Source: Opitutaceae bacterium (GTDB taxonomy: Bacteria > Verrucomicrobiota > Verrucomicrobiia > Opitutales > Opitutaceae). From it: a DNA stretch of 64,000 nt. The DNA lies in assembly GCA_030693515.1 (NCBI GenBank), contig JAUYAK010000119.1, positions 1 to 64,000 on the forward strand. The letters run 5' to 3'. A model generated the notes under the pieces. The model ran no database searches. It worked only from the letters and a program-made list of their open reading frames with translations, and was not told the origin of the DNA. Made by a program: the position numbers and the translations under genes. Shown here in pieces: positions 8,140 to 19,043 of the stretch (the stretch's first letter is position 1; every line of letters begins with the position of its first letter).

Positions 8140-8811
8140 ATGAAATTCCCCGCTTGTCGCACTCGTTTGCCAGTCTGGGCCTTGGCCGCGGCCTTCGCCT
8201 GCACCGGCTTCGGCTGCCTCAGTATCTTGATGCCCAAGCACCGCGTGATCGTCGATGCGATCGCGGCGCCGGGCGTCGCCAAGCCCAGCGGCATGTCCTA
8301 CCGGCTGCTCGCGAAAAAATCCACCGTCGCGCAGTCCCAGATGCAGGTGGCCGCGGTCAAGGCGTGCATCGACGCGGGCTTGACCGGCATCGGGATGTTC
8401 GAGGCGCCGGCCAACGCGGCGCCGGATCTTTTCATCGAGGTGGGTTTCGGCACCTACACGGGCGGCCGCGTCGATCCCTCGGCGCGCGAGACGTTCCTGC
8501 AGCTCTCGGCGCGCGACAATCCCACCAAGGGCATCAACAGTGGCACGGGCCAGGAACTGTGGGATGTGCGCGTGGCGGTGTTTGGCGTGGCCGGGGCGGT
8601 CGAGGCGGTGATGCCGCTGCTTTCCACCGTCGCCTCGCAGAATGTGGCGACCGATTCGCGTTTCGAGACGAAGATCGAGGTGCCGAAAAATTCGCCGGTG
8701 GTAAAAGCCGTCCGGGAGACCGCGGTGAAAGCGCTGGAGGAGCAGAGCCCGACGCCTCCGGCTGGCGCTTCGGGTAGGCCGGCGGCCGCGCTGCCTCAGC
8801 CGGTGCGATAG
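8140..8811 (+). CDS. Predicted lipoprotein of unknown function (DUF4136-like)
   Basis: A 223-residue protein with a signal sequence ending in the lipobox-like TGFGC followed by LSILMP, so it is probably a lipoprotein. The body (YRLLAKKSTVAQSQMQVAAV, then IDAGLTGIGMFEAPANAAPD, IEVGFGTYTGG) recalls DUF4136 outer-membrane lipoproteins, but the match is by eye and weak. The C-terminus is alanine/proline-rich. It follows ptsI by 72 bp and converges with a glycosyltransferase. Both stop codons lie in one palindrome. Confidence 0.6.
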   Translation: MKFPACRTRLPVWALAAAFACTGFGCLSILMPKHRVIVDAIAAPGVAKPSGMSYRLLAKKSTVAQSQMQVAAVKACIDAGLTGIGMFEAPANAAPDLFIEVGFGTYTGGRVDPSARETFLQLSARDNPTKGINSGTGQELWDVRVAVFGVAGAVEAVMPLLSTVASQNVATDSRFETKIEVPKNSPVVKAVRETAVKALEEQSPTPPAGASGRPAAALPQPVR

Positions 8812-8824
8812 CGCGGCCGCGCTA
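8809..8824. terminator. Perfect 16-bp palindrome containing both convergent stop codons
   Basis: TAGCGCGGCCGCGCTA starts with the TAG stop of the plus-strand lipoprotein and ends with the TAG stop (as CTA) of the minus-strand glycosyltransferase. It could form a short bidirectional hairpin. There is no T tract, so intrinsic termination is uncertain. Confidence 0.5.
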
Positions 8825-9841
8825 GGCCAAGGCCGTCGCGAGCGCGTCCGCCGCTGCGCGCCAGGGTGGCAGCGGACGGACCAGGGCCTCGGACCCGAGG
8901 CGCGCGACGAGGGCGTCGTCGGTCACGATGCGGCGCAGCGCGTCCCGCCACGCGGCCCGATCATCGGCCGCCACGCCAAGGCAGCCGCCGGCGTCGGCGT
9001 TTTCGCGCAAGACCGGCAAATCACTGCAGACGCACGGCACGCCCTGCCACAGCGACTCGAGGAGCGGGAGGCCGCAGCCCTCGGCGATGGTGGGAAAAAG
9101 CGTCGCGCGGGCGGAGGCGTAGAGTGCGGCGACGGTGGCATCGTCGGCGGCCTCGTGGAAGTGGAGCAGCGTGCGCCGGGTGCGCCGCAGCGCGGCGATG
9201 CGCGCCACGAGGGGGCGGCCGAAGTGCGGGTTTACACGGCCGACGAGATGCAGTTCGAAGGCGAGGCCCTCGGCCCAGAGATCTTCGCAGACGTCGAGGA
9301 GCAGCGCTTGGTTTTTCCTGGGTTCGAGGATGCCGACGCAAAGGAGGCTTGGGACGCGGGGCGCGGGGCGCGGGGCGGTGACGCGGGGCGCGCCGTGGCC
9401 ATCCGCGCCCAGCGCGAGCACCGCGACGGGCGGCGGATTTTCGACGCCGGCCCAGCGCCAGTAGCCCAGCAGATCGGCGCGGCTGGCGGCGGAGACGGCC
9501 CACACGCGGTCGAACTGCGCGAGCAGCTTCATGTAGCCGGGGTGGCGGGCGACGGACTGCGGCCACGTGATGTGCGGCTGGCGGAGGGGAATCGCGTCGT
9601 GAAACACGGCCGCCTTCCGGCAGCGTCGGGCTGCGAGAAAGGCGGAGAATCCGGGGCGCTCCTCCTCGCAGAAAAGTTCGGTGGTGAGAAACCAGTCGCC
9701 GGGCCCGGCGCGGCGCGCGGCCTCTTCCCAGGCCGCGGGCGTGGCGCGCGGGCCGAGTTCGGCACGCAGGCGGGCGCTCACGCGGGTGAGGCCGGAGCGG
9801 TGGCCGGCGGCGCCGGTCTTGGTGGTGTCGAAAAAAATCAT
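8822..9841 (-). CDS. GT4-family glycosyltransferase
   Basis: A 339-residue GT-B glycosyltransferase. The C-terminal Rossmann half shows VPSLLCVGILEPRKNQALLL, FELHLVGRVNPHFG and the donor-binding ALYASARATLFPTIAEGCG followed by LPLLESLWQGVPCVCSDLPV. The N-terminal half has AVFHDAIPLRQ and FDRVWAVSAASRADLL. Acceptor and donor are unknown. Its ATG overlaps the stop of the next glycosyltransferase upstream (ATGA, 9838-9841), so the two are coupled. It is the last gene of the minus-strand locus that begins with the ACP-dehydratase at 15644. Confidence 0.87.
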   Translation of the reverse strand: MIFFDTTKTGAAGHRSGLTRVSARLRAELGPRATPAAWEEAARRAGPGDWFLTTELFCEEERPGFSAFLAARRCRKAAVFHDAIPLRQPHITWPQSVARHPGYMKLLAQFDRVWAVSAASRADLLGYWRWAGVENPPPVAVLALGADGHGAPRVTAPRPAPRVPSLLCVGILEPRKNQALLLDVCEDLWAEGLAFELHLVGRVNPHFGRPLVARIAALRRTRRTLLHFHEAADDATVAALYASARATLFPTIAEGCGLPLLESLWQGVPCVCSDLPVLRENADAGGCLGVAADDRAAWRDALRRIVTDDALVARLGSEALVRPLPPWRAAADALATALA

Positions 9842-11094
9842 GGCGCCGCGGCGGCGACGGGAGCGGCCGGCAATGGCTCCACCGGCGTGGCGAGCGTGCG
9901 CTCAAACTGGCTGAGCAGGCGGCGGGCGTTCTTGTGGGCGTCGAAGTTCTCCTCGACCCACCGGCGCGCGGCGGCGCGGAGTTTCTCCGCGAACCCATCG
10001 TCGTGCGCGAGCCGTCGCAGTGCCGAGACCCAGTCGGCGGGCTGCGTCACCGGCACCACGTAGCCCGTGATGCCTTGCGTCACGGCCTCGGTGGTGGCGG
10101 CGGCGGGCGAAGTGACGACGAGGACGCCCGCGGCCATGGCTTCGGGGATTACATTGGGGAGCCCGTCGCGATCGCCGCTGGGGGCGATGACGCCGGTGTG
10201 CAGCAGCGCGTCGGCCCAGACGAGCTGGCTCCAGACCTCGTGCTGGGCGAGATGGCCGGTGAAGGTGACCTGGCCCGCGACGCCGAGGTGGCCGGCGAGC
10301 CGCTCGAGATCGGCGCGCAGCGGACCATCGCCGATGATGCGCGCGGCGAACGGCACGCCTGCGGCCTGGAGCGCGGCGTAGATGCGCAACTGGTGATCGA
10401 GACCCTTTTTCTCGACGAGGCGCGCGACGCAGACGAGGTGGAGTGGCGTGCGACCGGCGCGCAGCGCTTTCATCACCGGCAGGCGATCGAGGCCGCGGCG
10501 GATGCAGAGGGCACGGTCGGCCGGCACACCGCGCTCGATCAGGCTGCGGCGGCCCATCTCAGTCGAGGTATGCACGAAGGCCGCGGGCGCGAGTTTTTCG
10601 TCGAGCCACCAGTCGCCGCCGTGCTCGTAGATGTCGTAGGCGTGGGCGGCGGCGCTGTAGCGGTGGCCGTCGAGCCGCCAGAGGAGCCAGGCGGCGGTCG
10701 CGGGCGCGCCCCCCCACGCGGCGTGGACGAGGGCCGGCGGGTCTCTCCGGAATTCGCGCGCGTAAAGGCAGGCGAAACCCGCGCCGAGCATGTTTTCCCA
10801 GAAATTCATCCAGGAGGGCGCACGCCGCGTGAAGAGCCCGTGCAGCACCTGGCGCAGCACGGCGGGCCGGCGCCACGATTCCGCCGGGATCATCCAGAGC
10901 AGGGTGAGGAGCCGCCACTTGTTGAAGGAGGCGACCGGGAGCCCCCGGAACGAGCCGCCGCCGCCCCACAGCGAGTAGATGCGGAGGTGGACCCCGTGCT
11001 GCCGCATCGCGATGATCTCGCGCTGGAGAAACGTCTCCGTGTTTTTCGGAAACGTGGTGAAGAGATAGGCGATGACGGGCGGCTCGGCGGACAA
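9838..11094 (-). CDS. GT4-family glycosyltransferase (colanic-acid WcaL-like)
   Basis: A 418-residue GT-B enzyme. The N-terminus VIAYLFTTFPKNTETFLQRE resembles exopolysaccharide glycosyltransferases such as WcaL/AmsK. The C-terminal domain has LHLVCVARLVEKKGLDHQLR, FAARIIGDGPLRADLERLAG, VTFTGHLAQHEV and the E-x7-E type segment DGLPNVIPEAMAAGVLVV. The retained EAMAAG block and KKG lysine indicate a normal donor site. The C-terminal tail is alanine/proline-rich. The acceptor is unknown. Context suggests decoration of a lipid or surface glycan. Confidence 0.87.
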   Translation of the reverse strand: MSAEPPVIAYLFTTFPKNTETFLQREIIAMRQHGVHLRIYSLWGGGGSFRGLPVASFNKWRLLTLLWMIPAESWRRPAVLRQVLHGLFTRRAPSWMNFWENMLGAGFACLYAREFRRDPPALVHAAWGGAPATAAWLLWRLDGHRYSAAAHAYDIYEHGGDWWLDEKLAPAAFVHTSTEMGRRSLIERGVPADRALCIRRGLDRLPVMKALRAGRTPLHLVCVARLVEKKGLDHQLRIYAALQAAGVPFAARIIGDGPLRADLERLAGHLGVAGQVTFTGHLAQHEVWSQLVWADALLHTGVIAPSGDRDGLPNVIPEAMAAGVLVVTSPAAATTEAVTQGITGYVVPVTQPADWVSALRRLAHDDGFAEKLRAAARRWVEENFDAHKNARRLLSQFERTLATPVEPLPAAPVAAAAP

Positions 11095-11160
11095 GGTGGC
11101 GCGACGTTAGAGGGCGGCGTGCGCCGCGGCCAAGCGGATTGATGGCGCGGTGAATAATGA

Positions 11161-11230
11161 AGGGCGGCTGTGACCCGCCCTCGGTTCGGAACACCGGCGC
11201 GTGAAAGGGCGGGGCGGAGACCCGCCCTAC
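11161..11230. repeat. Two AGGGCGGG-type palindromes
   Basis: Palindromes at 11161-11181 (AGGGCGG arms, loop CTGTGAC) and 11206-11228 (AGGGCGGG arms, loop GCGGAGA), the second followed by AC. The CTA at 11227-11229 in the second flank is the stop codon of the GT28-type gene. The same family recurs at 21873-21941. Confidence 0.75.
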
Positions 11231-12483
11231 GGGGCGGCCGGCCCGTCGATGAACGGCGCCCGCGAACTCGCGGGGCCGCCCGTGCGCTCGGGCGGAAACG
11301 GGAGGCGGCGCAGCTTGGCGCCGGCGACCTCGTTGCCGAGCGCGAGGAGTTCGTCGATGATCACGGTGGGATCCTCTTCGTAGCGGAGCTTGATAAAGTG
11401 GGCGCGCGTCGCGGCGTAGTCGGCGGGATCGGCCATCCAGCGATCAATGATGCGGGCGAAGTCGGCGGCATCCCCGATTTTCTGGGAAGCGGCGCCGTTG
11501 CGGAAAAATTTCCACGTGAGCGCCTCCTGCGGCATGATGCCGCCAAACGCATTGAAAATGATCGGGCAGCGGAAGTGCAGGGCCTTGGCGCAGGTGGTCG
11601 TGCCGCCGCGGGTGACAATCGCGTCGCTGGCCTGCATGAGAAGATGCACCTCGTCCGAGTAGCCTTCGATATGGCAGGTGAACTCGGGGTGCAGGGTGCG
11701 CCAGTGGATGAGTTCGTTGTAGGCCTCCTTGTTGCGGCCGCAGATGATGATCGCCTGCACGCGGGCGGCGTGGGCGAGGAGGGCGGAGAGGAGGGCGAGG
11801 TGGTTGTTGGCGCCGTTGCCGCCCGTGGCGAGGAAGACGGTGAAGCGATCCGGGTCGAGGCCGAGCCGGCGCGCGCGGAAAGTGCGGCGATCGGCGGGGC
11901 TCAGCACCTCCAGGTGCGAGCGCGGGCGCATGAGGGAGCCGCGCACGCGGGCCTTGTCCGGCGGGATGCCGCATTTGACCGCGTAATCGCGTGCCGTGGG
12001 CGTGCGCGACACATAGAGATCGGCGGTGGGCTCGATCCAGTTGCGCGAGTAGCCCCAGCCGCCGGAAAACTCGCCGCAATAGGTGGCGCAGCGCACGCGG
12101 TCGGGGCCCAGGGTTCGCCGCGCGAGCTGAAAGTAGCCGCGGTTGAGGCAATCGTGGACGCTGAACACCAGGTGCGGCCGGTAGTCGCGCAGCACTTCAA
12201 GGTAGTAGGCGGCGCCGAAGGTGACGCGGCGGCGGTTGAGCCAGCTGAGCACCTCGACGAGCGCGAAGAAGACTTTGTGCAGCCAGGGCGCGGCGCGCTG
12301 GATGCGGTTGTAGAGGTTTACGCCGGTGCGGTTCACGACGGAGGATTTTTCGAGCATCTGCTCGATGCGCACATCGACGTCGTGGCGGTAGAGCTGGAAG
12401 CACCACTCGGCGAACGCCTCCGCGCGGGCGTCGTGGCCACCGCCGGTGCTCGAAGTGAGGACGAGGATGCGAAGCTTGGGCAT
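11227..12483 (-). CDS. GT28-type (MGDG synthase-like) diacylglycerol glycosyltransferase
   Basis: A 418-residue protein related to MGDG synthase and processive diacylglycerol glucosyltransferases, which glycosylate membrane lipids at the inner leaflet. It begins ILVLTSSTGGGHDARAEAFA, the family's glycine-rich STGGGH acceptor loop. It has SVHDCLN, then FTVFLATGGNGANNHLALLS and IICGRNKEAYNEL. The donor-binding segment ASDAIVTRGGTTTCAKAL is followed by CPIIFNAFGGIMPQEALT. Its place directly downstream of the SDR and ketosynthase genes suggests it glycosylates the lipid they make. That link is inference. The stop codon lies within a palindrome. Confidence 0.85.
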   Translation of the reverse strand: MPKLRILVLTSSTGGGHDARAEAFAEWCFQLYRHDVDVRIEQMLEKSSVVNRTGVNLYNRIQRAAPWLHKVFFALVEVLSWLNRRRVTFGAAYYLEVLRDYRPHLVFSVHDCLNRGYFQLARRTLGPDRVRCATYCGEFSGGWGYSRNWIEPTADLYVSRTPTARDYAVKCGIPPDKARVRGSLMRPRSHLEVLSPADRRTFRARRLGLDPDRFTVFLATGGNGANNHLALLSALLAHAARVQAIIICGRNKEAYNELIHWRTLHPEFTCHIEGYSDEVHLLMQASDAIVTRGGTTTCAKALHFRCPIIFNAFGGIMPQEALTWKFFRNGAASQKIGDAADFARIIDRWMADPADYAATRAHFIKLRYEEDPTVIIDELLALGNEVAGAKLRRLPFPPERTGGPASSRAPFIDGPAAP

Positions 12484-12491
12484 GGGGATGA

Positions 12492-13310
12492 TCAGCCGGC
12501 GTCGAAGTAGCGGGCCTGCACACGGCGCCGGAGCGGGAGCGAGCCGAGGCGTGCGAGCAACGGTGCGGCCACGGCCTGCGAGAAGCGCCCCATGCGCACG
12601 GTGCCGCTGCGGCGGCGGAGCAGGGCACGGCGCAAGCTGGCGGCCGCATGAGCGGGCGCGTGGCCCTGGGTCATCATTTTTTCAAACGCGGCCCAGGCGC
12701 GGCGCATCCGCGGGGTGGGCGGCCGCTGCGGATGGCGCACGGAGGTGTCGATGGCGGTGCGGTAGTCGCCGGGGCGCACGTCGAGCACCACGACGCCGGT
12801 GCCCGCGGTCTCGGTGATGAGGCTCTCGCTGAACGCGGAGAGGCCGGCCTTGGCAATATTGTAGGCGCTCTGGAAAGGCAGGGGAAACTCGGCGGCCAGC
12901 GAGGAGATGTTGACGAGCGCGCCGCGGTTGCGCGCGAGCATCCCGGGCAGCGCCGCGTGGGCGAGGCGGGCGGGATTGAGGAGCATCACGGCGAGCTGCT
13001 CCTCCCAGACGGAAAAATCCGCGCCCGCGAACTCCGCGAACACGCCGAAGCCGGCATTGTTGATCACTACGTCGAAGTCGCCGGCCGCGCGTTCGGCGCG
13101 ATGAAAGATCTCCAGCGCGGCGGGGCCGTCGCGCAGATCGAGGGCCAGGGGCTCCAGACCCGTGATCGGGGCGAGGCGGGCCGGGTCGCGCGACGTGCCC
13201 CAAACGCGCACGCCCTCGGCGAGCAGCATCTCCGCAAAGGCGCGGCCGAGGCCGGTGCTCGCCCCGGTGACCAGCGCCGTGCGGTAGAAATCGGAGACGC
13301 GGGCGGGCAC
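12492..13310 (-). CDS. Short-chain dehydrogenase/reductase
   Basis: NAD(P)-dependent SDR of about 272 residues. It shows the cofactor loop ALVTGASTGLGRAFA, DVVINNAGFG, the catalytic serine in GALVNISSLAAEF and the Y-x-x-x-K pair in SAYNIAKAGLSAFSES. The GTG at 13310 is chosen as start because the Rossmann fold begins ten residues later and it leaves the upstream ketosynthase stop (13315) free. The open frame continues to 13352 but would overlap that gene. In this context it would act as the beta-ketoacyl reductase of the chain-building set. Its C-terminal third, basic and hydrophobic, is longer than in FabG. Confidence 0.85.
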   Translation of the reverse strand: MPARVSDFYRTALVTGASTGLGRAFAEMLLAEGVRVWGTSRDPARLAPITGLEPLALDLRDGPAALEIFHRAERAAGDFDVVINNAGFGVFAEFAGADFSVWEEQLAVMLLNPARLAHAALPGMLARNRGALVNISSLAAEFPLPFQSAYNIAKAGLSAFSESLITETAGTGVVVLDVRPGDYRTAIDTSVRHPQRPPTPRMRRAWAAFEKMMTQGHAPAHAAASLRRALLRRRSGTVRMGRFSQAVAAPLLARLGSLPLRRRVQARYFDAG

Positions 13311-13314
13311 GGCT

Positions 13315-14577
13315 TCAGGCGACCCGCTTGAACACCAGCGCGACGTTGGCACCGCCGAATCCGCTGCTGTTTTTCACGACGATCCCGGGCTGCCGGTTTT
13401 CGGTGGCGCGGGGGAGGTTGAGGTCCGCGCACTCGGGATCGACCTGGGTGAGGTGCGCGCAGCCGGGGATGAAGCCGTCGCGCAGGGCCAACGCGCAGAA
13501 GGCACTCTCCATCGCGCCGGCCAGCGAGAGGCCGTGGCCCGTGAGGGCCTTGGTGCTGCTGACGGCGACACGAGGGAGGTGGTCCTTGAAGACCGTGCGC
13601 AGCGCGCGGGCTTCGGAGACATCGCCGATGAGCGTGGAGGTGGCGTGGGCGTTGACGTAGTCCACCTGCGCGGGCGAGACCGCAGCGGCGCGGAGGGCGT
13701 TGGTCATCGACGCCGCGGAGCCGCTGCCCTCGGGGTGCGAGATGGCGACGTTCCAGCCATCGGAGGCCTGGCCCCAGCCGAGGACCTCGGCATAGGGCCG
13801 CACGCCGCGGCGGGCGACCTCGTCTTCGCTTTCGAGCACGAGGGTGACCGAGCCGCCGGTGCCCACGAAGCCGTCGCGCCCGGCGTCGAACGGCCGCGAG
13901 GCGAGGCTGGGATCGGTCTGGAGGGAAAGGGTCCGCATGCCGGCGAAGGGCAAAATGGCGTCCACGTTTCCGTCTTCCGCGCCGACCACAAACATCCGCT
14001 TCTGGCGGCCGAGCATGATGTCGTCGTAGGCGTAGCCGAGGGCGTGGGCCGAAGAAGCGCAGGCGGAGGAGAAGCCGCAGGAGGAGCCTTGGATCTTAAA
14101 AGCGGCGATGAGATTGAAATTCAGTGTGCCCGCAATTGATGCGACGATCCCGAGGGGCGAGCACCGCATCACGCCGACCTTGGTGAGGCGATCGTGGTGA
14201 TGGTGGAGGAGGTAGGGTGAGCCGGCCGAGGCGGCGTAGAGGCCGGTCTCGGGTTGTGAGATGTCGGCGTCGGCGAGCTTGGCGTCGGCGATGGCCTGAA
14301 CCATCGCGCAGTGGGCGAAGAGGCCGTTGGGCGCCATCGTGCGCAGCAGCTCGCGCTTGATCTTGTAGGCGGCGGGAAAGGTCCAGTCCTCGGGATCGGT
14401 GGAGTCGGTCGTGAACTCCTTGATGGTGCCGATGACTTTGACCGGGATGTCGGGCTTCTGGAAAGGCGGATAGACCTCGAAGCCGTGCCGGAGCTCGCGG
14501 AGATGGCGGGTGACGGTCGCGGTGTCGTTGCCGATGCTGGTGACGAAACCGAGGCCGGTGATGAAGACTCTGGGCAT
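13315..14577 (-). CDS. Beta-ketoacyl-ACP synthase (FabF/FabB-like)
   Basis: Condensing enzyme of 420 residues. The C-H-H-K set of a working ketosynthase is complete: Cys173 in FSSACASSAHALG, His311 in VNAHATST, Lys343 and His348 in STKALTGHG. The N-terminus VFITGLGFVTSIGND and C-terminus NSSGFGGANVALVF are typical of the FabF/KAS II fold. It differs from housekeeping FabF around residues 30-80, where the sequence is unlike it. It lies between the ACP-dehydratase fusion (about 80 bp upstream) and the SDR gene (4 bp downstream), which points to a dedicated, non-housekeeping acyl chain. Confidence 0.92.
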   Translation of the reverse strand: MPRVFITGLGFVTSIGNDTATVTRHLRELRHGFEVYPPFQKPDIPVKVIGTIKEFTTDSTDPEDWTFPAAYKIKRELLRTMAPNGLFAHCAMVQAIADAKLADADISQPETGLYAASAGSPYLLHHHHDRLTKVGVMRCSPLGIVASIAGTLNFNLIAAFKIQGSSCGFSSACASSAHALGYAYDDIMLGRQKRMFVVGAEDGNVDAILPFAGMRTLSLQTDPSLASRPFDAGRDGFVGTGGSVTLVLESEDEVARRGVRPYAEVLGWGQASDGWNVAISHPEGSGSAASMTNALRAAAVSPAQVDYVNAHATSTLIGDVSEARALRTVFKDHLPRVAVSSTKALTGHGLSLAGAMESAFCALALRDGFIPGCAHLTQVDPECADLNLPRATENRQPGIVVKNSSGFGGANVALVFKRVA

Positions 14578-14660
14578 GCGGCGTGGAAACACCGCAGTGA
14601 AGCCTTTGCTTCCTGTCGGTCAACGCGGGAGGCGGAATGGATATTCCGCGACCGGCGAGG

Positions 14661-15644
14661 TCAGGCGTTGATGGCCACGCGCAGAGGGGGCGTGGTGGCG
14701 GCGGAAGCGGTGCCGGTGGAACCGGGCGCGTGACCGATCGCGCTGATCGGCACGGGGGCCTCGGCTGCCTCGACGATCCCGAAGGTGAGGGTGATTTCCT
14801 CGGCGATGACGGCCTTTTCCTGGCCGACGCGAATCGAGCCTTCGAAGGTCGCCAGCGGCATCTTCATGCGCTTGGGCTTGATCGAGAGGGTGAGGATGTC
14901 GCCGGGCTTGCAGATCCGGTGGGCGCGCACGCCTTCACAGCCAGTGAAGAAAATGGTCTGCGGGCTGATGACCTTGCCCGGCTCGGTCGGCGCACCCTCG
15001 AGCAGATACAGCACGGCGAGCTGGCCGAGCGCCTCGAGCATGATCGAGGCGGGCATGACGGGGTTGTCCTTGAAGTGGCCCTGCAAGAAGAACTCCTGGC
15101 CGGTGATCTTGTATTTGCCGTTGGCGGAGGCGGAGCTGACCGAGGCCTCGTTGAGAAACAGGAACGGCGGCTGGATCGGCATCACGGCCGCCACGTGCTC
15201 AATGGGGATGAACTTCGTGGGCTTGGGGAGGGGCAGGCCGCGAATCTTGCAGTCGATGAAGGTCTTCACGTCGCCGACGGTGCGCAGGTTGCGCAGCTCA
15301 TCGTTGTTGATCGTCATCTGGAGGACGTCCTCCACCAAAATGACGATTTCCATCATCGTCAGGGAATCGATACCCAGATCCTCAATGAGCCGGAGATCAT
15401 CGTCGGCGTCCTTGAGCTTCATCCGCAGATCGGGTTCCACGAAACGCTCGATCACGCCGATCACGACGGCGGGAACGTGCTCGGGATTGGCCGTCTTGCG
15501 GAACTGCACCGCCGCTTCAAAGGTGGATGGAGAGCAGCGTTTTAACGCCTCGCGCAATGCCACTTCATCCTCAGGGGCGAACGGCTTCGGCGTCATCGGG
15601 GCCGTTTTTTGTGCGCCCGCACTGGTTGAAACTGCATCTGGCAT
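14661..15644 (-). CDS. Acyl carrier protein-dehydratase (FabZ/FabA-like) fusion
   Basis: Two domains on one chain. Residues about 30-130 form an acyl carrier protein with the phosphopantetheine serine at Ser94 in LGIDSLTMMEIVILVED. Residues about 150-315 form a hot-dog dehydratase with the catalytic His190 in FFLQGHFKDNPVMP and the acidic partner in IMLEALGQLAV. The PHRYPF-type segment of FabZ is altered to PIQPPFLF. The tail is alanine/threonine-rich. The start is uncertain: ATG 15644 (MPDAVST) is used, but ATG 15677 and an internal ATG at MTPKPF also fit. It is the first gene of the minus-strand locus. Confidence 0.88.
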   Translation of the reverse strand: MPDAVSTSAGAQKTAPMTPKPFAPEDEVALREALKRCSPSTFEAAVQFRKTANPEHVPAVVIGVIERFVEPDLRMKLKDADDDLRLIEDLGIDSLTMMEIVILVEDVLQMTINNDELRNLRTVGDVKTFIDCKIRGLPLPKPTKFIPIEHVAAVMPIQPPFLFLNEASVSSASANGKYKITGQEFFLQGHFKDNPVMPASIMLEALGQLAVLYLLEGAPTEPGKVISPQTIFFTGCEGVRAHRICKPGDILTLSIKPKRMKMPLATFEGSIRVGQEKAVIAEEITLTFGIVEAAEAPVPISAIGHAPGSTGTASAATTPPLRVAINA

Positions 15645-15777
15645 TGTTCGTTCGTTGTATGAAACCGGGGGGAGCATTGTAAACCCCTTATTTCGGGCCG
15701 CAGTGTAACCCTAAAGTCACCCGCGGTATGGGCATTGCCTGACGGCGGCCGATCGACTCGATGTTTCACGCTCGACG

Positions 15778-16974
15778 ATGGCGCGGGCTGTGCCACTTCC
15801 GAACTCGCGCATGAGCGCCGTCGCCTTAGTCCCTCCCGCGGCCCAGCCGGTCTATTTGATCACGCACGAATTTTACCCGAAGCGTGGTGGCATTGCTACG
15901 TTTACGGAGGAAATTGCGCGGGCCTCGGCGGCGCTGGGCTACGATGTCGAGGTCTGGGCGCAGTCCGCGCCGGCGGGGGCGGAGAAGACTGACTGGCCGT
16001 TTCGCCTGCGGCGCCTGCCCTTGAAGGGCACCCACGACCTGGGCTGCCAGTTCCGGCTGGCGCGCGAACTCATCCGGCACCGGCGGGGCCTGCGGCACGC
16101 CACGGTCTATCTGCCGGAGCCGGGGCCGATGCTGGCGATGATGCTGCTCCAGTTCTTCCGCGCGTTCCGGCCCCGGCGGCTGGTCCTGACGTTTCACGGC
16201 TCGGAAATCCTCAAGTTTGCCGGCAGCCCGTGGCGGCGGTGGCTGGCGCGCGGCCTCATCCGGCACGCGACGCGCATCAGCACGCTCAGCACCTACACGC
16301 AGGAGTTGTTGCTCGGGCATTTTCCGGAGGCGGCGGACAAAACCTATCTCACCCCCGGTGCGCTCCGGTCGGACTTTGCGGTCGTGCCGACACGACCCGC
16401 CGCGGACCGCCCCAAGATCGTCGTGCTGACCGTGGGCCGGCTGCATCCGCGCAAGGGCCAGCTGCTCACCCTGCAGGCACTCCAGATGCTGCCGCCCGCG
16501 GTGCGCGCACGGCTCGAGTATTGGATCGTGGGCGGCCAGAGCAAAGGCAACTACGAGCGCCAGCTTCGCGCGGCGGCGGCGGCGCAGCCGGACCTGGCGG
16601 TGCGGTTTTTCGGCAATCTCCCGGACGAGGAGCTGGCCGGCATCTACGAGGGCGCGGACATCTTTGCGATGACGAGCGTCAACCACGGCCGCAGCGTCGA
16701 GGGCTTCGGCCTGGTCTATCTTGAGGCGGCGGCCCACGGGCTGCCCGTCGTGGCGCACGATGTCGGCGGCGTGGCTGATGCGGTGGCCGACGGCGTCACA
16801 GGACTGCTCGTGCCGCCGGATCGGCCGGTGCAGCTCGCGGCCGCGTTCGAAAAATTGATCCACGATGCGCCCCTGCGGAAAAAACTCGGCGCCGCCGGCC
16901 GCGAGTGGGCGAAGCGCAACTGTTGGAAGGTCTCCGCTGCCGCGCTCTTCAACCCCGCGCTGAATGCACCATGA
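15778..16974 (+). CDS. GT4-family glycosyltransferase
   Basis: A GT-B glycosyltransferase of up to 398 residues. The N-terminus VYLITHEFYPKRGGIATFTE is the acceptor-side glycine loop typical of GT4. Further on are LVLTFHGSEILKF, VVLTVGRLHPRKGQ, YWIVGGQSKGNYERQL and the donor site GFGLVYLEAAAHGLPVVAHD. The start may be ATG 15778 or ATG 15811 (MSAVALV); no ribosome site decides. It is divergent from the ACP-dehydratase gene across about 130 bp and overlaps the thioesterase by ATGA, so it belongs to the same lipid/glycolipid locus. Confidence 0.88.
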   Translation: MARAVPLPNSRMSAVALVPPAAQPVYLITHEFYPKRGGIATFTEEIARASAALGYDVEVWAQSAPAGAEKTDWPFRLRRLPLKGTHDLGCQFRLARELIRHRRGLRHATVYLPEPGPMLAMMLLQFFRAFRPRRLVLTFHGSEILKFAGSPWRRWLARGLIRHATRISTLSTYTQELLLGHFPEAADKTYLTPGALRSDFAVVPTRPAADRPKIVVLTVGRLHPRKGQLLTLQALQMLPPAVRARLEYWIVGGQSKGNYERQLRAAAAAQPDLAVRFFGNLPDEELAGIYEGADIFAMTSVNHGRSVEGFGLVYLEAAAHGLPVVAHDVGGVADAVADGVTGLLVPPDRPVQLAAAFEKLIHDAPLRKKLGAAGREWAKRNCWKVSAAALFNPALNAP

Positions 16975-17372
16975 TCATCTCGCGCACACAGATTGTCGTC
17001 CGCTACGCGGAGACGGACATGATGGGGGTCGTCTATCACGGCAATTTCCTGCCGTGGTTCGAGGTCGGCCGCACCACGCTGCTCAAGGAGCTGGGCCTGC
17101 CGTATCGCCAGCTGGAAGCCGAGGGTTACCGCCTGCCTGTGCTGGAAGTCGGGGTGAAATACCTCCGCCCTGCGCTCTACGACGACACCGTGACCATTGT
17201 GACGACGCTGCGGGAGAAACCGCTGCTCCGCATCCGGCTCGAGTATGAGGCGCGCCGCGGGAACGAGTTGCTCGCGACCGGCCACACGGTCCACGCCTTC
17301 ATCGATCTCGAGGGGAAACCGGTGCGCCCGCCGGCTTCGGCGGTGGCGGTGTTTGGCGCGGCCTTCAAGTAG
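16971..17372 (+). CDS. Acyl-CoA/ACP thioesterase (YbgC/4-hydroxybenzoyl-CoA type)
   Basis: A 133-residue hot-dog thioesterase. The family signature is complete: YAETDMMGVVYHGNFLPWFE with the catalytic aspartate at position 16. The C-terminal part has GHTVHAFIDLEGKPVRPP. The ATG at 16971 overlaps the glycosyltransferase stop (ATGA). A longer frame starting at 16905 would lie inside that gene and is not supported. Such small thioesterases occur in aryl-polyene and other iterative lipid clusters, where they are thought to edit or release chains. Its substrate here is unknown. Confidence 0.9.
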   Translation: MIISRTQIVVRYAETDMMGVVYHGNFLPWFEVGRTTLLKELGLPYRQLEAEGYRLPVLEVGVKYLRPALYDDTVTIVTTLREKPLLRIRLEYEARRGNELLATGHTVHAFIDLEGKPVRPPASAVAVFGAAFK

Positions 17373-18501
17373 CCGCGGCCTCCGCGGTTAACTCCGCGAG
17401 CACGAGCGGATCCGTTTCGGTCGCGGCGGCGGCGGCGAGCGCAGGGCCGCCGCCGAGGCGAAACACCGCCCACACCGCGTGGGCGCGCACGAGCGGCGCG
17501 GCGTGCGCCGTAGCGAGCGCGGTGAGCTGCGGGAGCAGCGAGGCGTCGCCGCTGTTGCCGGCGACGATGCAGGCGTTGCGCAGCAGGCCGGTGAGCTTGA
17601 GGCGCTTCATCGGCGTGCGGCGAAAGACCTCGGCAAACCGCTCCGGCGTGAGCGCGAGGATTTCCTCCAGCGCCAGCTCCGCGAGATCGTGGCGCGCGGC
17701 GAGGAGGAGCCGCCGGCCCTCACGGGCGAAACGGTTCCACGGGCAGACTTCGAGGCACACGTCGCATCCATAGATGCGGTGGCCGATGCCGGCGCGCAGC
17801 TCGCGCGGGATCACGCCCTTGTTCTCGATCGTCTGGTAGGAGATGCAGCGGCGGGCATCGACGACGCCGGGCGCGGGAAACGCTCCCGTCGGGCACGCAT
17901 CCAGGCAGCGCGTGCAACGGCCGCAGAGCGTGCCGATATCGCGCGCGTGAAAATCGTTCTTCACCGGCGCGTCGGGCGCGAATTCGAGGCGCGTGAGAAT
18001 CGCGGCGAGGAAGAGCCAGTTGCCGTGGCGGCGCGAGATGAGCATCGCATTTTTCCCGGTGAAACCGAGCCCCGCGCGCGCGGCCCACGAGCGTTCGAGC
18101 ACGGGGCCGGTGTCGACGTAGGCGCGGTAGTCGTCGCGCGTCGCGCCGTAGAGTTCGCCGAGGAGGCGGCCGGCCGCTTCAAGCGCAGGTGCGAGGGTGT
18201 CGTGGTAGTCTTCGTGCAGGGCGTAGCGCGCCCAGACCGGGCGGCCGGCGGGCGCGGTCTTTTCCGACCAGTAGTTCACGCCGAGCATCACGATGGATTT
18301 CGCCTCCGGCACCACGAGCCGCGGATTGAGGCGTTTCTCTGCCGTGCGCTCCATCCAGTGCATGTCGGCGTGATGGCCGGCGGCGAGCCACGCGCGGAGC
18401 GGGGCGGTCGGAGCCTCGTCGAGGCGCGCAAACCGCACGTCGTCGAAGCCCAGCGCCGTCAGGCGGCGGCGCAGTTCCTCCTGGCGTTCGTCCGCGCTCA
18501 C
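17365..18501 (-). CDS. queG: Epoxyqueuosine reductase
   Basis: Reduces epoxyqueuosine to queuosine in the wobble position of tRNAs, using cobalamin and two [4Fe-4S] clusters. The 378-residue length is normal. The cluster ligands are CGRCTRCLDACP (residues 193-204) and CDVCLEVCPW (246-255). The N-terminal region has LAAGHHADMHWMERTAEKRL and AKSIVMLGVNYW. The C-terminus is the HEAT-like extension of the longer QueG form. The start is GTG 18501, which overlaps the aroK stop as GTGA. The upstream open frame lies inside aroK. It converges with the thioesterase, overlapping it by 8 bp. Confidence 0.94.
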   Translation of the reverse strand: MSADERQEELRRRLTALGFDDVRFARLDEAPTAPLRAWLAAGHHADMHWMERTAEKRLNPRLVVPEAKSIVMLGVNYWSEKTAPAGRPVWARYALHEDYHDTLAPALEAAGRLLGELYGATRDDYRAYVDTGPVLERSWAARAGLGFTGKNAMLISRRHGNWLFLAAILTRLEFAPDAPVKNDFHARDIGTLCGRCTRCLDACPTGAFPAPGVVDARRCISYQTIENKGVIPRELRAGIGHRIYGCDVCLEVCPWNRFAREGRRLLLAARHDLAELALEEILALTPERFAEVFRRTPMKRLKLTGLLRNACIVAGNSGDASLLPQLTALATAHAAPLVRAHAVWAVFRLGGGPALAAAAATETDPLVLAELTAEAAAT

Positions 18502-19043
18502 GGGTGCGCGCGCGCGAAATCCGCGGCGTCGCGCCGCCACGCGCGCAGCACATGGGCCGCGATGTCGGTGAGCGGCCGGCCGTCGGTCAGGATGACCGTG
18601 CCCGACTGCTTGTAGATCGGCTCACGTGCGGCGTAGAGCGTGCGGACGCGTTCCTCGGGATTATCGACCTCGAGCAGCGGCCGGTTGCGCTGGCGCGCGG
18701 TGCGCGCGAGGATGGTGTCGAGCGAAGCGTGCAGGCAGACGACGACACCCTTCGATTTCAGGAGCTCCAGCATGCCGGGCTGCACCACGAGGCCGCCGCC
18801 GCAGGCCACGAGCGTGCGCTGCGCCGGGTGCCCGCCTTCGATGAATTCCCGCTCCATCGCGCGGAATGCCGGCTCGCCGTCCTGCGCGAAGATTTCCGGG
18901 ATCGTCTTCCCCTGCTGCCGCTCGATCTCGTGGTCGCTGTCGAGGGCGTGGAAGCCGGTCCGATGCGCGACGGCACGGCCCACGGTGGTCTTGCCGGTGC
19001 CCATGAAGCCGACGAGGTAGAGGTTGACGTCCGCTGGATTCAT
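18498..19043 (-). CDS. aroK: Shikimate kinase
   Basis: Phosphorylates shikimate in aromatic amino acid biosynthesis. It is 181 residues. It has the P-loop VGFMGTGKTTVGRAVA, the shikimate-binding DSDHEIE, the FRAMEREFIE segment, ACGGGLVV and the adenine-side RNRPLLEVDNPEERV. The stop overlaps the queG GTG start, so the two genes are coupled. The ATG at 19043 gives the classical short N-terminus MNPADVNLYLVG. Confidence 0.94.
   Translation of the reverse strand: MNPADVNLYLVGFMGTGKTTVGRAVAHRTGFHALDSDHEIERQQGKTIPEIFAQDGEPAFRAMEREFIEGGHPAQRTLVACGGGLVVQPGMLELLKSKGVVVCLHASLDTILARTARQRNRPLLEVDNPEERVRTLYAAREPIYKQSGTVILTDGRPLTDIAAHVLRAWRRDAADFARAHP

Follow-up and report, generated by a model that had tools for sequence, protein, structure and literature searches.

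In Pseudomonas fluorescens MYb115, a cluster combining a polyketide synthase (PKS), a serine palmitoyltransferase (SPT) and a short-chain dehydrogenase/reductase (SDR) resembling 3-ketodihydrosphingosine reductase (KDSR) makes sphinganines, and the core of this cluster, PfSgaAB, has two genes, for one iterative type I PKS and an oxoamine synthase (PMC12134224). In Rhodobacteria, including E. coli B, a dedicated acyl carrier protein (ACP) hands acyl chains to SPT; in this AcpR/AasR/SPT system, AasR loads a free fatty acid and CerR lies inside the cluster (PMC9386255). We compared with these systems a locus at positions 8822–17372 of a stretch of 64,000 nucleotides from an Opitutaceae bacterium (contig JAUYAK010000119.1; phylum Verrucomicrobiota), hereafter the window. 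This locus probably supplies the enzymes for chain building and glycosylation in a glycolipid pathway of the sphingolipid type. Its nearest precedent is PfSgaAB, where ketosynthase chemistry feeds an oxoamine synthase of the SPT type, as is proposed here, and where the cluster includes a KDSR-like SDR (PMC12134224). Such a linkage of a ketosynthase (KS) system with an SPT was seen in relatives, but not in the window genome itself, and the KdsR model ranked first for the SDR orthologue of G132, a genome outside the order, and seventh for the window SDR. Unlike PfSgaAB, the window encodes the KS, a fusion of ACP and dehydratase (ACP-DH) and the SDR as separate genes, together with a glycosyltransferase of family 28 (GT28) and several of family 4 (GT4), and it belongs to Verrucomicrobiota. 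The AcpR/AasR/SPT system also has an ACP dedicated to SPT (PMC9386255), but the window ACP is fused to a dehydratase (DH) and travels with a KS. Labels beginning with C, G and L denote contigs of the window genome (itself G000), genomes compared, and loci or stretches compared, respectively; the gene names are those of Table 1.

The partner of the locus is predicted to be an SPT-like alpha-oxoamine synthase (AONS). Of the first 26 stretches compared, the window among them, nine had a gene of this SPT-like orthologue cluster adjoining GT4a or GT4b or standing one gene off. The window genome carries this gene at C123:2183–3385, behind another GT4 gene as in G022, and it is the only oxoamine synthase found there at E ≤ 1e-3. 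Its best PDB match was an SPT of the Sphingobacterium type (320 bits; the best BioF/KBL entry reached 266), and its best NCBIfam model was SPT (393.5, versus 332.6 for bioF), all models scoring under their cut-offs. In the AONS tree, which had long branches for E. coli BioF, E. coli B SPT and one paralogue, the locus-type SPT clade (100/100) grouped with E. coli B SPT and a canonical SPT (95/86 and 96/88), apart from KBL and BioF. No biotin synthase exceeded the cut-off in the window genome (25 versus 225 bits). The tree, the models and the absence of BioB thus disfavour BioF or KBL as the identity of the partner. The invariant residues of pyridoxal-phosphate enzymes were left out of this assignment because they do not tell these families apart.

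We assembled three blind sets, consisting of 387 Verrucomicrobiota genomes, 57 relatives and 80 Opitutaceae loci; the last set is silent on distant taxa, because only the best 80 of 374 relatives by ACP-DH alone, 75–89% identical to the query, were kept. Among these 80 loci, 69 had 4 kb upstream, 53 had 8 kb downstream and 39 had full flanks. GT4c and the thioesterase (TE) were present in 69/69 loci with the upstream flank, and the loci with the downstream flank contained KS and GT28 (52/53), GT4a and GT4b (39/53), the SDR (37/53) and SPT (29/53). Gene order is kept across the family, in agreement with the conservation that the earlier note on this DNA had proposed as a check. SPT was found in 22 of the 39 full-flank loci, followed in 21 of these by a further GT4, and five loci shared the arrangement of the window, with ptsI and an unassigned open reading frame (ORF; lp8140) beside the locus. 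The window genome therefore most likely holds a rearranged form of the locus. Within the genus, 26 of 27 genomes have ACP-DH; so do 47 of the 57 relatives, counting split as well as fused forms (E ≤ 1e-35). The fused form (at least 280 bits) occurred in 45/387 genomes of the phylum, three of them outside the order (G305, G132 and G063), and four more genomes (G340, G276, G055 and G051) had a split or partial form. A KS matching that of the window at E ≤ 1e-105 was present in 46 of the 47 relatives with ACP-DH (not G037) and in none of the other ten; in 39 of the 46 the two genes shared a contig, and in some of the others the KS match may be a paralogue of the type found on contig C22. Given the spread of ACP-DH and the conserved order in the family, this gene grouping is more than chance.

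Co-occurrence with SPT was counted in the 387 genomes at a threshold of at least 576 bits and for the locus-type clade only, because other oxoamine synthases are common (a match at E ≤ 1e-60 in 245/387). ACP-DH and this SPT occurred together in 44 genomes, ACP-DH alone in five, SPT alone in one (G206, which keeps KS, SDR, GT28, GT4b and an ACP) and neither in 337. The two genes were within 20 kb of each other in 24 of the 44 genomes, farther apart on one contig in four (70 kb to 1.8 Mb) and on different contigs in 16. The corresponding figures for the 57 relatives were 41 with both, six with ACP-DH only, two with SPT only (G020 and G052, 70% and 50% complete) and eight with neither. Linkage outside the order is more telling than these counts. 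In G305 and G132, which belong to other orders, SPT, GT4b, GT28, SDR, KS, ACP-DH and GT4c lie within 14–17 kb at 36–55% identity, and G063 keeps GT4c, ACP-DH, KS and SDR, with SPT 70 kb off; pyrF, ispE, ptsI, lp8140, queG, asd, aroK and an aldolase-like neighbour were found in none of these three class-level loci. SPT was present in four (L052, L053, L054 and L059) of the 12 order-level loci chosen by ACP-DH alone, some of these stretches being short. Loci L255–L258, L263, L265 and L267–L270 were picked once their ACP-DH or SPT was known and do not constitute a blind sample. Among them, L255, L256 and L265, from more distant genomes, have a class III aminotransferase added to the cluster, and both L255 and L256 also encode an MJ1255-like glycosyltransferase, as well as a protein of about 330 residues that has no assignment; the added aminotransferase and glycosyltransferase hint at variant products outside the order.

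Gene content, conservation, linkage and co-occurrence with SPT, and the positions of KS and SPT in the trees are established, but several observations weigh against a sphingolipid-type pathway. SPT and the locus are on different contigs in the window genome, and 12 of the 39 full-flank loci lack GT4b, GT4a and SPT in the stretch. The SDR is missing from 16 of the 53 Opitutaceae loci with the downstream flank, and KS lies off the ACP-DH contig in 7/46 genomes. ACP-DH occurs without this SPT in G056, G211, G276, G055 and G051 among the 387 genomes and in G024, G035, G045, G051, G055 and G056 among the 57 relatives, and in G051 (L064:10236–12780) DH and KS stand directly before a gene resembling 3-deoxy-D-manno-octulosonic acid (KDO) transferase. 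ACP-DH and KS may therefore also have other uses as a pair. The co-occurrence tests overstate significance because shared ancestry is ignored. Several generic SDR models outscore KdsR on the window SDR, and KdsR shares its match to each of the 16 SDRs compared with eight other SDR models. Finally, the window genome yielded no homologue of bCerS or CerR with E. coli B YghO (the bCerS homologue; E ≤ 1e-5) and CerR (E ≤ 1e-15) as queries, a search that distant homologues could escape. Matches to the two queries were found in 7/57 and 9/57 relatives, respectively. Either the lipid would therefore not be N-acylated or an unknown enzyme would act. Separate, canonical-looking sphingolipid clusters with bCerS-like, CerR-like and SPT genes do occur among Opitutaceae, being observed in L252 (G013) and L251 (G034), the latter with an SPT piece at the edge of the stretch and an AasR-like gene.

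The catalytic residues of the KS (C178, H316, K348 and H353) are invariant in 18 aligned KSs. Its best PDB match was FabB (7pps, 262 bits), and it is 38.8% identical to E. coli FabB. In the KS tree, the locus KSs and one paralogue formed a clade (100/100) that paired with E. coli FabB (97/95), the clade being deep and separate from FabB in a tree with one FabB reference. Four rows (two Ape KSs and two KSs of the window genome) had long branches, and conclusions were drawn solely from the locus clade and from the way it pairs with FabB. The window genome has nine PF00109 matches, including the window KS, and two of its other KSs are 45–47% identical to E. coli FabF. A housekeeping FabF role for the window KS, against which the earlier note had suggested a tree as a safeguard, was rejected on these two grounds, the KS falling outside the FabF clade and two FabF-like KSs being encoded elsewhere in the genome.

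The ACP of ACP-DH carries a DSL motif. The top models for the DH are FabZ and its Pfam family is FabA-like (PF07977); the His/Glu pair H201/E215 is invariant in an alignment of 19 rows, with Glu at the second position in 19/19, and is of the FabZ type. The N-terminal extension is conserved and has helices at residues 35–79 in an otherwise poor AlphaFold2 model (mean pLDDT 50.7). A second ACP of the window genome (C108:49385–49765; L065:9290–9889) has the same extension without a dehydratase, is 56% identical to the ACP half of ACP-DH and is also present in G018; an SDR (L065:10450–11196) lies near it. In L052:10790–13464 (G049), OleD-like and OleC-like genes, of long-chain olefin synthesis, directly adjoin ACP-DH.

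The pairing of the KS clade with E. coli FabB and the FabA-like family of the DH are shared with the FabA/FabB system. A line of this kind might supply unsaturated chains to glyceroglycolipids made by the GT28, which resembles monogalactosyldiacylglycerol (MGDG) synthase and other enzymes using diacylglycerol, with the SPT a mere neighbour in a separate role, as its absence from some ACP-DH genomes would allow. We nevertheless regard this as unlikely, since the catalytic pair of the DH has Glu and not Asp, bulk unsaturated chains need no dedicated ACP, whereas here the ACP is fused, and SPT stays linked across orders in which the other neighbours are lost; the identity of the window KS to FabB, 38.8%, is a further difference from the E. 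coli system.

The earlier note had suggested that the locus makes a polyene-like or unsaturated acyl chain that is then glycosylated. KS, DH, SDR, ACP and thioesterase without an enoyl reductase are indeed a set shared with the aryl polyene (APE) cluster of E. coli CFT073, and an aryl-polyene-type KS on contig C22 belongs to the same KS clade, as a paralogue 55.5% identical to the window KS. However, none of the ten proteins encoded at 8.1–18.5 kb was recognised by Pfam or NCBIfam models as a chain-length factor, ligase, acyltransferase, MMPL or LolA protein, and the window locus differs from the CFT073 cluster both in this and in having an SPT partner and four glycosyltransferases. A gene set of aryl-polyene or flexirubin type is instead located on C22, at approximately 5.9–16.7 kb (L071:3893–14666), and includes MMPL, LolA-like, GT2, chain-length-factor-like KS, KS paralogue, ACP and tryptophan-halogenase-like genes; from its gene content, it is this set rather than the window locus that is the obvious candidate for pigment synthesis. 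The absence of an enoyl reductase from the locus is not in itself a sign of a polyene, because contig C89 encodes a FabI-like protein (C89:15132–15872; 30% identical to E. coli FabI, 107 bits) adjoined by a FabA/FabZ-family match (C89:14676–15059). A glycosylated polyene-like chain or pigment is thus a quite improbable product, and the polyene or unsaturated acyl glycolipid of the earlier proposal was not supported. The view of the note that the locus is not a standard APE cluster is borne out by the gene content, C22 being the better candidate for such a cluster.

A PDB search with the GT28 at E ≤ 0.1 matched MGDG synthase (60 bits), processive diacylglycerol glucosyltransferase (47 bits) and nothing else, the entries being 4wyi and 9wde, consistent with the earlier suggestion of a lipid-glycosylation locus with its own acyl-chain enzymes. 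GT4b resembles EpsE/WcaL, SPT and GT4b are separated by a GT9 gene in L052 and L054, and a KDO-transferase-like gene follows KS in L064, as might be expected of a locus decorating lipopolysaccharide or exopolysaccharide, in which ACP-DH and KS would supply a special acyl group to a sugar rather than to SPT. This explanation seems to us the least probable of those considered, as no acyltransferase gene was recognised in the window locus and the recurrent partner is SPT. The window SDR is a candidate 3-ketosphinganine reductase or ketoreductase. It scored 100.6 bits with the KdsR model, with six models ahead, and its PDB matches were only generic and FabG-like. The top NCBIfam model for its orthologue in G132 was KdsR (160 bits).

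Pfam and NCBIfam models identify ACP-DH, KS and SDR in the locus, along with one GT28, three GT4 enzymes and a thioesterase of the 4HBT type (Table 1). All of these genes, including a KS with its full catalytic set, were where the earlier note had placed them, the minus-strand unit does extend to the end of GT4a at 8822, and the locus has no enoyl reductase. The two transcripts that it described as divergent and overlapping are divergent, but they do not overlap each other: the units are about 100 bp apart, and overlaps occur only within each of them. From ACP-DH to GT4a, successive genes are separated by 68 bp, a 38-base overlap, 8 bp, 132 bp and a 4-base overlap. The flank beyond TE is formed by QueG (17365–18540) and the other flank by ispE, ptsI and lp8140 (8140–8811, plus strand, between ptsI and the locus). 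This last ORF had no Pfam or NCBIfam match; three of the four loci from the genus contain it, whereas the 28 other loci compared all lack it. The earlier interpretation is, overall, partly supported; SPT was invisible in the window alone because it lies on another contig in this genome, though it is a frequent neighbour of the locus in relatives.

Table 1. Genes of the window locus, with positions in the window and main family or model matches
Gene	Position	Strand	Matches
ACP-dehydratase fusion (ACP-DH): N-terminal extension, ACP, FabA/FabZ-like hot-dog	14661–15677	-	PF00550 and PF07977; FabZ, ACP models
Ketosynthase (KS)	13315–14592	-	PF00109/PF02801
Classical SDR, start codon uncertain	12492–13352	-	PF00106
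GT28, MGDG-synthase / processive diacylglycerol glucosyltransferase-like	11227–12483	-	PF04101; NF010135, 75 bits
GT4b, EpsE/WcaL-like but far under those cut-offs	9838–11094	-	PF00534
GT4a	8822–9841	-	PF13692/PF00534
GT4c, divergent unit	15778–16974	+	PF00534/PF13439
4HBT hot-dog thioesterase (TE)	ORF 16905–17372, domain from ATG at about 16968	+	PF13279/PF03061; TIGR00051, 73 bits (cut-off 68.7)

For the sphingolipid-type pathway that we favour, we infer the hand-over of substrates, the order of the steps, the product and its location as follows. KS and ACP-DH would assemble or alter an acyl chain while it is bound to the fused ACP; ketoreduction would fall to the SDR or to a housekeeping FabG, and a FabI-like enzyme would take part where a saturated chain is needed. 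SPT would then join the acyl-ACP to an amino acid, serine or a related one, in a condensation that yields a 3-keto long-chain base, the 3-ketone of which would probably be reduced by the SDR. GT28 and the GT4 enzymes would add sugars, to give a glycosylated long-chain-base or ceramide lipid resembling a glycosphingolipid, and the thioesterase may clear stalled carriers. That no bCerS or CerR homologue was found in the window genome is a difference from the AcpR/AasR/SPT system. In a more specific form, which we put forward tentatively and to which we give somewhat less than an even chance, Opitutales and a few other Verrucomicrobiota would have a line of discrete enzymes hard-wired to SPT through ACP-DH, making multi-glycosylated long-chain-base lipids without the ceramide synthase and reductase known from bacteria. 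If true, this would open another way to sphingolipids in bacteria, and the product would be a common lipid in the envelope of a phylum that has been little studied.

In a survey of the Black Sea, 22 Verrucomicrobiota metagenome-assembled genomes (MAGs) were found to encode Spt-like proteins, and in other phyla (33 Cloacimonadota MAGs) neither bCerS nor CerR lay within 10 ORFs of the Spt-like gene (PMC11334938). Enzymes acting on glycosphingolipids in Verrucomicrobia, but not synthesis, are mentioned in the portion of another paper drawn on here (PMC5673642). The present cluster was not named in the open-access literature searched, including for Opitutus with serine palmitoyltransferase. Judged from its genes, the locus would best be classed as a so far undescribed variant of sphingolipid or glycolipid synthesis in bacteria. 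The cluster bears on the making of the chain and the completion of the lipid in such bacteria, and it brings together, as a conserved unit, candidates for the enzymes that build the chain, reduce the ketone and add the sugars. In it, a fatty-acid line of its own would be coupled to SPT, in an arrangement not found in the open-access literature searched.

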